From positions 1-64,000 of the forward strand of contig NZ_BSOJ01000038.1 in the NCBI RefSeq assembly GCF_030160455.1: a DNA stretch of 64,000 bases. Direction: 5' to 3'. Positions within the stretch are counted from its first letter, which is position 1; each line of letters starts with the position of its first letter. This document shows positions 41,666 through 49,833 of the stretch, piece by piece. The translations under genes and the position numbers were made by a program. The notes beneath the pieces are model-generated. The model ran no database searches and was not told the DNA's origin. It saw nothing but the letters and a program-made list of their open reading frames with translations. The DNA is from Limnobacter litoralis (GTDB lineage: Bacteria; Pseudomonadota; Gammaproteobacteria; Burkholderiales; Burkholderiaceae_B).

Positions 41666-43318
41666 ATGTCGAATGTCGAAAGAGACATGATGGAATATGA
41701 CGTGGTTGTTGTAGGTGCAGGCCCAGCAGGCCTGTCCACAGCCATCCGACTGAAACAACTGGCCGCCGAGAAAGGTCAGGAAATCAACGTGTGCGTGCTG
41801 GAGAAAGGCTCCGAGGTTGGCGCACACATTCTGTCTGGCGCCGTCATGGACCCACGCGCAATGGATGAACTGTTCCCCAACTGGAAAGAGTTGGGCGCGC
41901 CATTGAACACGGCTGTCACTGAAGACCAGTTTTTGTTTTTAACAGAAACTTCAGCCAAAAAAGTACCCAACATGTTGCTGCCAAAGTGTTTCCAGAACCA
42001 TGGCAATTACATCGTCAGCCTTGCAAACGTCGTCCGCTGGCTGGGCGAGCAGGCAGAGGCCCTTGGCGTTGAAGTGTTTCCGGGCTTTGCGGCCGCTGAA
42101 GTGCTGTACGACGAAAACGGTGCAGTCAAAGGCGTTCAAACCGGCGACATGGGCATCGGCAAAGATGGCGAACCCACACACGCCTATCAGCCTGGCATGG
42201 AACTGCACGCCAAATACACCATTTTCGCCGAGGGCGTTCGCGGGCACCTTGGTAAACGGGTCATTGAAAAATACAACCTGAATGAAGGTCGCGACCCCCA
42301 GGTGTATGGCATCGGCTTGAAAGAGCTGTGGGAAATCGACCCGGCCAAACACCAGGAAGGCCTCGTGATTCACAGTGGTGGATGGCCACTGGATTCAGAA
42401 ACCTACGGTGGTTCATTTTTGTATCACCTGGAAAACAATCAGGTGGCAGTGGGTTTTGTGGTGGGCCTGGCCTACCAAAACCCCTACCTGTCGCCGTTTG
42501 AAGAATTTCAGCGCTACAAAACCCACCCGGCCATTCGCAAGTACTTTGAAGGCGGCAAACGCATCGCCTACGGCGCCCGTGCAATTGCCGCTGGCGGCTT
42601 GATGAGCCTGCCCAAGCTGGTGTTCCCCGGTGGCGCGCTTGTGGGTTGTGACGCAGGCTTTTTAAATGCTTCGCGCATCAAGGGCAGCCACGCGGCAATC
42701 AAGAGCGGCATGCTATGCGCCGAAGCCGTATTCGACGCTGTCACCAACAATCGTGCTCACGACGAACTTGACGCATATCCAAAGGCATTCCATGACTCAT
42801 GGCTGTTTGATGAGCTGTATCGCGCCCGAAACTTCAAGCAGTGGATGTCCAAGGGACTGTACACCGGCACCATGATGGTAGGCTTCGAGCAGAAGCTGTT
42901 CAACGGCAAGGTGCCCTGGACGCTGCATCACAAGCATGCGGACCACGAATGCCTGCGCCCCGCGTCGGAGTATCAGCCGATCGCCTATCCGAAACCTGAT
43001 GGAAAAATCACTTTCGACAGGTTGAGTTCGGTGTTTATTTCAAACACCAACCACGAAGAAAACCAGCCCGCCCACCTGACACTGAAAGATGCCAGCGTGC
43101 CGGTCAATGTCAACTTCAATCAATACGCAGGGCCTGAACAGCGTTATTGCCCAGCGGGTGTGTACGAGTACATCAAAACAGACGAAGGGAAAGATCAGTT
43201 GCAGATCAATGCGCAAAACTGCGTGCATTGCAAAACCTGTGACATCAAAGATCCCACACAAAACATCGTGTGGGTGACGCCGGAAGGTGGTGGTGGGCCC
43301 AACTACCCCAACATGTGA
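41666..43318 (+). CDS. Electron transfer flavoprotein-ubiquinone oxidoreductase
   Basis: 550 aa membrane-bound enzyme passing electrons from ETF (fatty acid and amino acid oxidation) to ubiquinone. The FAD-binding VVVGAGPAGLSTAIRL is at about 13-28. C-terminal cysteines in RYCPAGVYEY and NCVHCKTCDIKDP bind the 4Fe-4S cluster, and the ending VWVTPEGGGGPNYPNM is diagnostic. AAGGAGA lies 8 nt before ATG 41666. A hairpin follows 15 bp after the stop, then a repeat-rich gene-free region. Confidence 0.97.
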   Translation: MSNVERDMMEYDVVVVGAGPAGLSTAIRLKQLAAEKGQEINVCVLEKGSEVGAHILSGAVMDPRAMDELFPNWKELGAPLNTAVTEDQFLFLTETSAKKVPNMLLPKCFQNHGNYIVSLANVVRWLGEQAEALGVEVFPGFAAAEVLYDENGAVKGVQTGDMGIGKDGEPTHAYQPGMELHAKYTIFAEGVRGHLGKRVIEKYNLNEGRDPQVYGIGLKELWEIDPAKHQEGLVIHSGGWPLDSETYGGSFLYHLENNQVAVGFVVGLAYQNPYLSPFEEFQRYKTHPAIRKYFEGGKRIAYGARAIAAGGLMSLPKLVFPGGALVGCDAGFLNASRIKGSHAAIKSGMLCAEAVFDAVTNNRAHDELDAYPKAFHDSWLFDELYRARNFKQWMSKGLYTGTMMVGFEQKLFNGKVPWTLHHKHADHECLRPASEYQPIAYPKPDGKITFDRLSSVFISNTNHEENQPAHLTLKDASVPVNVNFNQYAGPEQRYCPAGVYEYIKTDEGKDQLQINAQNCVHCKTCDIKDPTQNIVWVTPEGGGGPNYPNM

Positions 43319-43360: not shown

Positions 43361-43470
43361 TGCTGAGTCGGCTGTTTCTAAGTCGGCTGTTGCATGTGGG
43401 CATGCCACTTGCGCCTAGTAGTTGCTGAGTCGGCTATCGCAGGTGTGCATGTCACTTGCGCTTGGTTTGC
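43361..43470. repeat. Degenerate direct repeat pair
   Basis: TGCTGAGTCGGCT followed by a 'GCATGTGGGCATGCCACTTGCGC'-like block (cited in part: CACTTGCGC) occurs twice, starting near 43361 and 43425. The first copy carries an extra AGTCGGCTGT. No gene is visible. Confidence 0.5.
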
Positions 43471-43494
43471 CCGAATAGACGCTGATCAGGACCC

Positions 43495-43574
43495 TGGCTT
43501 TGGAAGCCCGAGCGACAACTCGTGGCTTTGCAAGCCACTCAAACATGTCGCAGGTCGGGCCTATTCCAAAGCTG
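43495..43574. repeat. Structured hairpin repeat, left copy
   Basis: This segment folds on itself. GCTTTGGAA (43497-43505) pairs with TTCCAAAGC (43564-43572). GCCCGA-GCGACA (43506-43517) pairs with TGTCGC (43546-43551) and TCGGGC (43555-43560), leaving 3-nt bulges AGG and CTA. An apical stem TGGCTT/AAGCCA (43523-43528 / 43532-43537) tops it. A second copy lies inverted at 43875-43956 with paired substitutions. I know of no named element of this form. Confidence 0.6.
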
Positions 43575-43673
43575 CGGATTCCGAGCAGCCGGGCAACCCC
43601 GAATCGCGCTGCGTGACACACCCACCTGCAAAGCCTGACAGCGGGGAACATCGACACAGGGATTTCAACCATT

Positions 43674-43753
43674 CTGCTGACCTGCTGACCTGCTGACCTG
43701 CTGACCTGCTGACCTGCTGACCTGCTGACCTGCTGACCTGCTGACCTGCTGAC
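43674..43753. repeat. Ten perfect tandem copies of an 8-bp unit
   Basis: CTGCTGAC is repeated exactly ten times without a mismatch. Read on the minus strand it gives a spurious 8-residue peptide repeat. Such arrays are prone to slippage and may vary in copy number between isolates. It lies near the middle between the two inverted hairpin copies. Confidence 0.95.
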
Positions 43754-43874
43754 CAACTTAGCTTGACCCTTATCGTACTGTTCACCAACTTCGACCGAAG
43801 CCTCGGTCTGCCCCAAGCGCACTGCCCAGTCTGTCGCAGCCCGATTCAAGAATTGCCCCACTTGTGTTGACTCG

Positions 43875-43956
43875 CAGCCTTGGAACATGCCCGACCTGCG
43901 ACTTGTCTGAGCCCCGGCTATTCCGGGGCGAGTTGTCGCTCGGGCTTCCAAGGCCA
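43875..43956. repeat. Structured hairpin repeat, right (inverted) copy
   Basis: Inverted copy of the 43495-43574 element, including 23 bp of exact complementarity (43929-43951 against 43500-43522). It folds as GCCTTGGAA (43877-43885) with TTCCAAGGC (43946-43954), GCCCGA (43889-43894) with TCGGGC (43940-43945), GCGAC with GTCGC, and an apical GCCCCGG/CCGGGGC stem (43911-43917 / 43923-43929). Compared with the left copy, the apical stem is wholly different in sequence yet still paired. Confidence 0.6.
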
Positions 43957-44104
43957 GAGGCAATTACAAGTTGAATGGGCAATTCAAGGGCAAGACAGAC
44001 TGGGCAGTGCGCTTGGAACAAGCACCCAGGCCAGAGGCAATTCAAAGTGATACGGGCAATTCAAGGGCAAGACAGACCGGGCTGTGCGCTTAGGCCAGCA
44101 AGAC
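43951..44104. repeat. 77-bp tandem duplication
   Basis: AGGCCAGAGGCAATT at 43951 recurs at 44028, and GGGCAATTCAAGGGCAAGAC at 43977 recurs at 44054, a period of 77 bp with few mismatches. A third, truncated start (AGGCCAGCAAGACAGAC) follows at 44092. Part of unit one (43994-44016) is also an exact 23-bp inverted repeat of 43813-43835. No gene is visible between the ETF-QO stop and the parC stop. Confidence 0.85.
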
Positions 44105-44107
44105 AGA

Positions 44108-46417
44108 CTAGGCCCTTCTCATGCCCTCAACCTTGAACTTCACATCGAGCTCTCGCCCTTTCCTGCCCCGCTTGCCAAAACGCTCAAGCAAATAGGCAGG
44201 CTTTAGCAATTCCTCGCGGTCTTTGCCGCCTCGCCCAGTGCCAAACACCACAAGGCTGTCTTCAGGCCCGAAGGCCACAAGGCCAAGCAGCTTGTCACCC
44301 TCTTCAAGAGGCAACAGTTGAACCCCGCGCCCACCGCCGGCAAGGCCTTTCACCTCATCCAGTGCGAAAACATGAAAACGACCAGATTCCGAAATCACTG
44401 CAACGCGGTCATCCGATGAATCAATCTGAATGGGAGGCAAGACTCGTTCGCCATCTGACACACTGATGAATTGCTTGCCGGCTTTGATCCGGCTGTCCAG
44501 ATTGCCTGCTTTGGTGACAAAACCATAAGCGCCACTGACTGCCAGCAACAGGGCTTGCTCTGCATTGCAAGCAAGAGCGTGGCACAGGGTGCCGCCGTTG
44601 AGCTCAATCAGGCTTTGTGCGGGGATGCCATCGCCTCGGCCACCAGGCCAGCTGCTGACTGGCACGCTGAACACTTTGCCACTGGCCGAACCGGCACCGA
44701 ACAGGTAAGTTTGATCGGTGGTTTTGCATTCAAACGCGGCATACAGAGAATCACCCGCCTTGAACGTGAACTGAGCGGCGTCGTGACCATGCCCCTGCCT
44801 GTTTCGAACCCAAAACTTTTCAGACACTATGACGGTTGTGGGCTCTTCAATCAGCTTGACTTCCACGCTGGCCTTTTGGGCTTCCTCAATGAGGGTTCTA
44901 CGGTCATCACCAAAGGCCTCGGTGTCTTTTTTGATTTCAGCCACGATGCGCTGGCGCAATTTGCCCTCGTCGGCCAGCAAGCCCTCCAGCTCCGCTTTTT
45001 CTTCCGCGAGCTTGCCCAGTTCCTGTTCAATTTTGATCTTCTCCAGCCGCGCCAATTGACGCAAGCGGATTTCAAGAATGTCTTCGGCTTGACGCTCAGA
45101 CAAATTGAAACGGCTCATCAGCGCTGACTTGGGCTCGTCCGATTCACGAATGACGGCGATGACTTCATCAATGTTCAACCAGGCAATCAACCGCCCTTCG
45201 AGCACATGGATGCGGTCATTGACCTGAGCCAGACGGTGACGGGTGCGCCGCAACACACAAAGCTGCCTGAACTCGATCCAGTCCTTCAGCATCGCCAGCA
45301 GACCACGCTGACCGGGGCGGCCGTTGTTGTCGATGCTCACGAGGTTCAGCGACACATTGGTCTCAAGGGAGGTGTGGCTCAGCAGCAGGTTGGCAAAATC
45401 GTCGACGCTGATGTTGCGCGACTTTGGTTCAAACACCAAACGCACTGCGTTCTCTTTGCCAGACTCATCGCGCACGGTGTCCAGCACCCCAAGTATCTGC
45501 TGCTTGAGGTTTTGCTGTTCGGGAGTCAAGGCCTTCTTGCCCGTTTTTACCTTGGGATTGGTCAGTTCTTCGATTTCTTCCAGCACGCGGGCAGTGGATG
45601 TGTTGGGCGGCAGTTCGGTGATCACCAATTGCCATTGTCCACGCGCAAGATCTTCCACCTTCCAGCGCGCACGCACTTTCAGCGATCCACGACCGCTTTC
45701 ATAGACGTCGCGAATGGCTGCCCGCGGTGAAATAATTTGAGCCCCACCCGGGAAATCAGGCCCCAGGATGTGCTCCATCACCTCGTCGAGTGTGATGGAA
45801 GGCTTTCGAATCATCGCAATGGTGGCACTGCTTACTTCGCGCAGATTGTGGGGTGCAATGTCAGTGGCCATGCCCACCGCAATGCCAGAGGCGCCATTGA
45901 GCAACACGAAGGGCAGGCGCGCTGGCAGCAATTTGGGCTCTTTCATGCTGCCGTCGTAATTGGCAATGAAGTCGACGGTGCCCATGTCAATTTCGTCGAG
46001 CAGCAGCCGCGATATGGGTGTCAATCGGGCTTCGGTGTATCGCATGGCCGCCGCACCATCGCCATCGCGACTTCCGAAGTTGCCCTGCCCGTCAATCAAG
46101 GGGTAGCGCAAAGTAAAGTCTTGCGCCATGCGCACAAGGGCCTCGTAGGCCGCCTGATCGCCGTGAGGATGGTACTTACCCAGCACGTCACCCACCACAC
46201 GCGCCGACTTGACAGGACGGGCGCCTGCGGACAGGCCCATCTCATTCATGGCGTAGAGAATTCGACGCTGAACAGGCTTTTGACCGTCTGCGCATTCAGG
46301 CAGTGCACGCCCCTTCACGACGGAGATGGCGTAGTCCAGATAGGCACGTTCAGCGTAGAGACCCAAGGTAATCTGCTCATCGGCATCCTTGGGTGGTTCG
46401 AGTGTCAATTGTTCCAT
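44108..46417 (-). CDS. parC: DNA topoisomerase IV subunit A
   Basis: 769 aa. The type IIA cleavage core has the catalytic tyrosine in [10 protein letters not shown] (Tyr127). The [13 protein letters not shown] region (about 80-92) corresponds to the quinolone-binding segment, with Gln at the position of E. coli Ser80. The C-terminal beta-pinwheel shows blades such as [18 protein letters not shown]. ParC with ParE decatenates sister chromosomes. parE is not adjacent here: the upstream neighbour is rlmB, and downstream lies the repeat region. Confidence 0.96.
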
Positions 46418-49746: not shown

Positions 49747-49833
49747 GCCCAGGTGGCGGAATTGGTAGACGCGCTAGGTTCAGGTCCTAGTGGTGGTAAC
49801 ACTGTGGAGGTTCGAGTCCTCTCCTGGGCACCA
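49747..49833 (+). tRNA. tRNA-Leu (anticodon CAG)
   Basis: 87 nt including encoded CCA. Acceptor stem GCCCAGG/CCTGGGC is perfect. The D-arm carries GGCGGAATTGGTAGACGC, and the anticodon stem CTAGG/CCTAG holds the loop TTCAGGT with CAG at 49781-49783. A long variable arm (TGGTGGTAACACTGT) and the T-loop TTCGAGT complete a class II leucine tRNA reading CUG. Nothing is integrated at its 3' end. Confidence 0.97.

Follow-up and report, generated by a model that had tools for sequence, protein, structure and literature searches.

What kind of element is represented by two inverted, self-folding sequences in an intergenic gap of Limnobacter litoralis, the stems of which have diverged from each other and yet still pair? 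The window analysed here, the first 64,000 nucleotides of contig NZ_BSOJ01000038.1 (assembly GCF_030160455.1), contains such a pair at 43495-43956, between two ORFs that an initial reading of the sequence (the first-pass annotation) named as putative ETF-QO and parC genes. We consider it probable that this element represents a single copy of a mobile, non-autonomous repeat with an inverted hairpin of ~80 nt at either end; the hairpins would be recognised in trans by their fold and their loop.

Structure of the hairpin pair

The features of the gap and its neighbours are as follows.

41666..43318, + strand: left neighbour, 550-aa ORF, putative ETF-QO
43374..43466: left-end repeats, two 46-nt units at a spacing of 47, 80% alike
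43495..43572, + strand: hairpin L (covariance model match 43490-43576)
43517..43522, + strand: conserved loop of hairpin L, 5' half, AACTCG
43538..43545, + strand: conserved loop of hairpin L, 3' half, CTCAAACA
43552-43554 and 43561-43563: 3' bulges of hairpin L, AGG and CTA
43674..43754: central 8-bp tandem array between L and R, CTGCTGAC x 10.1
43813..43835 and 43994..44016: outer inverted arms around hairpin R, exact complements
43877..43956, - strand: hairpin R, inverted partner of L (model match 43873-43961)
43904..43911, - strand: conserved loop of hairpin R, 3' half, CTCAGACA
43929..43934, - strand: conserved loop of hairpin R, 5' half, AACTCG
43948..44091: right-end repeats, 67 nt at a spacing of 77, 87% alike
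44108..46417, - strand: right neighbour, 769-aa ORF, convergent, putative parC

L and R have the same architecture: three stems are stacked below an apical one, and 3-nt bulges occur solely on the 3' side. The stems of hairpin L are GCTTTGGAA/TTCCAAAGC, GCCCGA/TCGGGC and GCGACA/TGTCGC, with TGGCTT/AAGCCA at the apex, and hairpin R has the apical stem CCCCGG/CCGGGG and the bulges AGG and ATG. The RNA folding energies are -43.9 (L) and -53.0 (R) kcal/mol, with z of -4.98 and -4.87 and 0 of 200 dinucleotide shuffles as good; folding as DNA gave z of -5.34 (L) and -5.44 (R), again with none of 200 dinucleotide shuffles as good. Aligned in inverted orientation, L and R match over 29 nt at 97% and over 39 nt at 87%. 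The positions given for the two hairpins in the first-pass annotation were correct, and the self-folding stems with 3-nt bulges and a small apical hairpin that it described are borne out by z values near -5 for both RNA and DNA. The exact 23-nt inverted match that it reported lies inside the 29-nt match, and the exchange of the apical stem with pairing retained was found as described, as was the change of an outer-stem T-A pair to C-G. It had regarded L and R as two copies of an element; both hairpins are real, but they are the two ends of a single intergenic element.

L and R are inverted around the central array, the length of which varies among the elements of this genome, and the number of left-end repeat units also varies from copy to copy. 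Elsewhere in the window, a tRNA gene (Rfam RF00005) is located at 49747-49830 on the + strand.

Copies in the genome of L. litoralis

A DNA search of this genome (3.01 Mb in 47 contigs) identified nine pairs, a lone hairpin on contig C30 and a diverged pair on contig C17, to which the covariance model added a third pair, in direct orientation, at C2:25.3-25.6 kb. In total at least 23 model matches were obtained with 150 of 742 candidates scored. The hairpins are 78-104 nt long, and the units are 84-92% identical to the element of the window where they match it whole, the C2 copy being shortened. The ten inverted pairs of this genome share one polarity, with the motif strand + and then -. Among the hairpins of this genome the stems are variable and the internal loop, AACTCG ... 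CTCANACA, is constant: exchanges that preserve pairing affect the apical stem, a single outer-stem pair and, in C17, three pairs in the third stem, and both halves of the loop are unchanged throughout.

The diverged C17 pair (L076:2807-3571 = G000:C17:10806-11570) carries a further small hairpin in its outer bulge, and the membrane-like ORF of 97 aa that it encloses passes no family cut-off. It is located between two co-directional ORFs, which we take to be flhB and flhA. The hairpins on C2 (L351:1262-1632 = G000:C2:25261-25631) belong to a third subfamily, present as two direct copies in a longer repeated stretch, and have a AAAGGTTGCC flank in common with elements of the congener G002, presumably L. 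humi and so called below. A transposase-like ORF, presumably of the mutator type (IS256-like), is found ~1.2 kb from one element (L072:1946-3181).

Comparison with other Limnobacter genomes

The main family has no DNA match in any of 15 congeners, two of which are represented by genomes <90% complete. At one site the comparison extends to the insertion itself. The distance between the matches to smpB and to a band-7 gene is 874 bp in this genome, with an element in between, and 24-41 bp in seven of the 13 informative congeners; in the remaining six it measures 110-1381 bp, and in two further congeners the two genes are on different contigs. No hairpin was found by the order-wide model R2 (described below; E up to 1) in the smpB/band-7 loci of the 13 congeners. 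Judged by sequence comparison at this single site, the smpB/band-7 copy is an insertion relative to the congeners. The single longer gap that was read, in G015, is filled by other ORFs (two, of 293 and 116 aa, at L362:149-1398), and in view of these ORFs this may be a hot spot for insertion in general. Neither a target-site duplication nor exact ends could be read, as the tandem arrays blur the ends.

The ETF-QO/parC site of the window is not usable as an empty-site comparison because parC was not matched in the flanks fetched from 14 congeners. No hairpin was found by model R1 in the 14 corresponding ETF-QO loci, which extend past the gene by 1.5 kb at most and by a shorter distance in one or more of them.

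The hairpin family in the order

Two covariance models were used to follow the family outwards. With 19 hairpins from L. litoralis as its basis, model R1 matched six of 268 genomes of the family, that of L. litoralis included; L. humi was among them, with very different stems. Model R2, built from 18 hairpins of six genomes, matched at least 61 of 399 genomes of the order (own genome included), in 35 of 158 genera. Since 11 candidates were scored per genome, from up to several thousand, these counts are low and a genome lacking an R2 match is not thereby shown to be hairpin-free. Chance matches at E 0.01 per genome are expected in ~4 of the 399 genomes, perhaps in several times that number because the E-values of R1 and R2 are rough. 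The exact pattern of the main subfamily of this genome was not found in the genome_contigs collection, from which the genome of the window may itself be absent.

The genome of L. humi (G002) gave at least 18 R2 matches with 150 of 829 candidates scored. These elements (L124-L150) are single hairpins inside a longer dispersed repeat, some with tandem CAGCAACACCGG-type repeats upstream, and the models found no inverted second hairpin in these loci. In several other genomes of the order a palindrome of the TACTTTTCTTG...CAAGAAAAGTA type is also present outside the main hairpin at both ends of the pair (L181-L183, L185, L193, L195); these stretches also give long ORFs that appear spurious.

The first-pass annotation had proposed that structure and not sequence is kept, and had suggested a covariance-model search of this genome and its relatives as a check. 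That search returned many dispersed copies with covarying stems, in this genome and in many genera, in agreement with the proposal. In alignment A4, changes on both sides are seen in 24 of 27 pairs, with a covariation score of 0.627; shuffled alignments gave 0.166 and slid controls at most 0.106. In alignment A6, of 129 hairpins, the score is 0.647 against 0.146 shuffled, with slid controls at or below 0.112. Two of five measures in A6 were not above shuffles (pairs changing on both sides, 208/500, and pair types, 322/500), as was one of five in alignment A2. Many alignment rows are related copies, and absolute pairing in A4-A6 is inflated because the alignments were fitted to models; the low scores of the slid controls nevertheless indicate that the pairing register is real.

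The loop AACTC..TCARACA is exact in 66 of 69 distinct model-found hairpins of other genomes (alignment A5), a figure that is not independent because the model rewards the loop, and in A6 conservation of the loop arises by construction because the loci were picked by the loop pattern. In PMC8794818, template switching during replication is described as another source of compensatory changes and of perfect stems, and compensatory changes alone are therefore no proof of selection. This raises an alternative in which the hairpins are neutral palindromes, repeats spread by recombination that acquire compensatory changes by template switching and have no recogniser. While template switching can both make and repair perfect stems (PMC8794818), a neutral origin leaves a constant internal loop and a constant polarity, amid changing stems, without explanation, and we regard it as highly improbable.

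Polarity and gene context

The polarity of the pairs was found to extend beyond this genome. Among model matches in 100 of the at least 117 genome_contigs loci, 33 of 37 pairs of neighbouring A6 hairpins less than 1.5 kb apart are arranged + then -, with one - then +, two in the -- and one in the ++ arrangement; for A5, with repeats of the same place left out, the count is 23 of 26, with one in each of the other arrangements. Spacers of the + then - pairs in A6 are of 100-299 bp in 29 of 33 cases, 100-199 bp being the commonest class (25/33).

Taken together with the copies and the smpB/band-7 comparison, the element is multi-copy, inserted at the site compared and mostly of one polarity, and its loop is near-constant while its stems have diverged yet remain paired.

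Gene context was scored for single hairpins from pattern and model matches, including 11 L. humi copies, with ORFs called by script and no gene predictions; 37 of 101 hairpins were dropped for having no ORF within 800 bp on both sides. The remaining 64 lie in convergent gaps in 28 cases, in co-directional gaps in 30 and in divergent gaps in six. In this genome, seven of 11 elements lie between convergent genes by script (eight with C10 re-read), and some copies are in divergent gaps by the same script.

DNA or RNA

The strong folds and the covariation, and the frequency of convergent gaps both in the wider set and in this genome, are consistent with a structured RNA, either a 3'-end element or a bidirectional terminator or stabiliser of convergent transcripts as proposed for BIMEs. 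The inverted pair would then supply each convergent transcript with a sense-strand hairpin. Two terminator-like matches at 43438-43461, adjoining hairpin L, also point in this direction (0.9 expected), but no promoter-like match was found in the gap that holds the element. A sense-strand hairpin is hard to reconcile with the copies in divergent gaps, or with the co-directional gaps, in which the motif strand shows no preference (15 vs 15).

Mismatches within the stems give a divided picture. In cells flanked by standard pairs, G-T is outnumbered by A-C in each alignment (14 to 38 in A5, 30 to 47 in A6 and 1 to 6 in A4), and these counts speak against an RNA of the motif strand. Over all cells, the G-T and A-C counts are 66/52 in A5, 168/71 in A6 and 7/10 in A4, and those of A5 and A6 speak for RNA; part of this excess of G-T may be due to one subfamily with fixed G-T positions and to the fitting of the alignments to models.

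A search of Rfam gave no family at gathering score at the hairpins, the weak matches being to unrelated families, and this too argues against a structured RNA. A first idea, RF02278, which we take to be a toxic small RNA of Betaproteobacteria, is absent from the Rfam matches at both gathering and E-value thresholds. A role as RNA, with the element retained for its usefulness, is an alternative that we consider unlikely. A DNA hairpin is favoured because of the mobility of the element, its lack of strand preference relative to genes and its resemblance to REP sequences, and we infer that the hairpin acts as DNA.

Y1 transposases and known repeat systems

REP sequences and terminal inverted repeats moved by a Y1 HUH transposase (RAYT or TIRYT) provide the nearest precedent. 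Inverted pairs, intergenic dispersal and bulged stems are known for the repeats of RAYTs and TIRYTs, for which long self-complementary TIR families have also been described (PMC3733652, PMC2817692 and PMC6006769). An origin of this kind, perhaps with later loss of the transposase from L. litoralis, was rejected on several grounds and is in our view very unlikely. Neither this genome nor L. humi G002 yielded a match to the Y1 domain PF01797. Across 40 + 40 chosen genomes there was no association between Y1 and the hairpin (PF01797 in 22/40 with and 23/40 without a hairpin match; Fisher p 1.0), the first group being some of the genomes matched by R1 or R2 and the second having no match among scored candidates. 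None of the 53 Y1 loci in all 22 hairpin-bearing genomes with PF01797 has a hairpin (E up to 0.1) within ~1.5 kb on either side, nor has any of 17 loci in genomes without a match. The REP tag GT[AG]G was found within the 7 nt before the model foot in 0 of 129 hairpins on the motif strand and in 1 of 129 on the opposite strand, where ~4 are expected, and CGTC in 1/129 and 0/129 on the two strands. On present evidence the mobilising factor is not a Y1 (RAYT/IS200-type) transposase.

The element does resemble REP, BIME and REPIN repeats associated with RAYTs in consisting of dispersed, intergenic, imperfect palindromes in inverted pairs, some of them bulged, with stems that vary between species. 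It differs from them in length (78-104 nt against 21-65 nt for REPs in PMC6006769), in having neither a GT[AG]G guide nor any Y1 gene or association, and in having one internal loop common to several genera. The view in the first-pass annotation that it is a REP/BIME-like mobile repeat therefore stands as regards dispersal, covarying stems and insertion, but not as regards strict membership of the REP class, for want of the tag and of Y1. The element thus acts like a REP or BIME while lacking the tested marks of membership, and its near-invariant loop points to a putative recogniser.

Other systems offer partial parallels. CGTC-tagged REPs are likewise palindromes that occur in several phyla without a dedicated transposase, but theirs have stems of 8-9 bp, loops of 4-5 nt and a CGTC tag, in contrast to the four stacked stems here (PMC3733652). 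The repeats of TIRtrons, which have long, partly self-complementary inverted ends and form moderately abundant families, are defined by their position on either side of a Y1 transposase (same source), whereas 0 of 53 Y1 loci in hairpin-bearing genomes are flanked here. MITEs, according to the review PMC10969869, share with the element a short length, the lack of a transposase gene, inverted ends and empty sites in relatives, the last of these being found here at smpB/band-7, the single site compared. They differ in that neither a plain terminal inverted repeat nor a target duplication was read here, and no parental IS was found in a search for Y1 alone. No description of the motif was recognised in the open-licence PMC literature, including passages of PMC2267715 and PMC8632094, although sequence strings are poorly searchable and this absence is weak evidence.

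A different comparison is with the attC sites of integrons.

In attC the hairpin is imperfectly paired, some bases are extrahelical and the terminal stem varies, and the sites form head-to-tail arrays. The present hairpins share the imperfect pairing, the extrahelical bases, the variable terminal stem and possibly a position beside orphan genes, but are found in inverted pairs and not in head-to-tail arrays.

ORFs enclosed by pairs

The possible link to orphan genes arises from pairs that enclose ORFs. ORFs that pass no curated cut-off are enclosed at C17 (97 aa), L179 (299 aa), L181 (120 aa), L183 (157 aa) and L299 (264 and 145 aa). For the L179 ORF, NCBIfam NF053583, a family of putative phage structural proteins, gave a match below threshold (41.4 bits against a cut-off of 60, E 1.1e-10); the other Pfam and NCBIfam matches of the enclosed ORFs are weak and were read as chance. 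A cargo of defence genes was considered and discarded, as none of six ORFs had a PADLOC match. These ORFs could mean that small gene cassettes are bounded by the inverted hairpins; each pair would be able to carry an orphan gene, and the short pairs, which are the common kind, would be relics. Against this, the spacing of 100-299 bp in 29 of 33 A6 pairs leaves room for a small ORF at most, and some wide spacers hold host-like ORFs: the same one in two spacers from two genomes, presumably an enoyl-CoA hydratase, and in one further spacer a long ORF that we take to be an aconitase. There is accordingly a slim chance at best that this is the basic nature of the pairs, and a cassette function is treated as a lead.

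Occurrence beyond the order

Beyond the order, a descriptor was used that combined the loop pattern with a short G/C apical stem, the pairing of the flanks being absent from the pattern. It matched at least 117 stretches in genome_contigs and gave no match when the whole descriptor was run on reversed sequences. Eight or more consecutive paired bases beside the loop were found in 47 of 129 listed occurrences (three viral ones included in the 129), whereas 200 random reassignments of the 3' arms among the occurrences gave 1.1 on average and never more than 5. By record title the paired flank extends over 18 bases in Desulfobacterales, 17 in [Clostridium] fimetarium, 16, 15 and 11 in Lachnospiraceae, 15 in Nitrospira, 10 in both Elusimicrobiales and Cyclobacterium, 9 in Bacteroidota and 8 in Marinobacterium, and many beta-proteobacteria are also among the 47. 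The other 82 fall below eight; many come from a subfamily of beta-proteobacteria with mismatched bases close to the loop, others (for example Amoebophilaceae, Blautia and one further Desulfobacterales chromosome) have 3-5 paired bases, and some, the three viral ones included, look like chance matches in genes. In a Nitrospira record, outer sequence of a comparable kind and a second, inverted hairpin were seen by eye. Hairpins of this design thus recur in distantly related bacteria, as detected by one exact pattern and in records many of which are metagenome bins, possibly misassigned.

Carriage by phage was considered and set aside, as the three matches on viral contigs each have at most 2 bp of flanking stem and a narrower viral scan gave none. 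A plasmid search with the L185 element of another genome gave one match, to a Variovorax record, over 26% of the query at 74%.

A wider reading of this recurrence, which we put forward tentatively and hold to be open to considerable doubt, is that the hairpins constitute a pan-bacterial class of mobile DNA, extending from Burkholderiales to Clostridia, Bacteroidota, Desulfobacterota and Nitrospira. Such a class would be set by the folded single-strand hairpin and the near-invariant AACTCG/CTCARACA loop and not by sequence, its inverted pairs could enclose orphan genes, and it would imply a widespread, undescribed non-HUH recogniser.

A possible route of mobility

For the mobile repeat itself, a sequence of events can be suggested. 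When a single strand is exposed during replication, repair or transfer, each end would fold into its hairpin. A factor supplied in trans might then read the folded shape together with the AACTCG/CTCARACA internal loop, and not the sequence of the stems, and copying or movement might take the inverted pair as its unit. The search for Y1 gave no mobilising gene. Insertions would persist for the most part between genes, in many cases convergent ones, and the drift of stems that nevertheless stay paired may reflect selection for recognition, perhaps also hairpin-templated repair.

Were the loop kept across phyla while the stems change, something in those cells would probably be reading it. One caution that follows from the family is that covarying stems need not mean RNA. 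The loop provides a defined bait for pull-down, and the covariance model can serve as a defined probe of further genomes. If the loop is indeed kept across phyla, the spread of palindromic repeats without RAYT transposases becomes directly testable.
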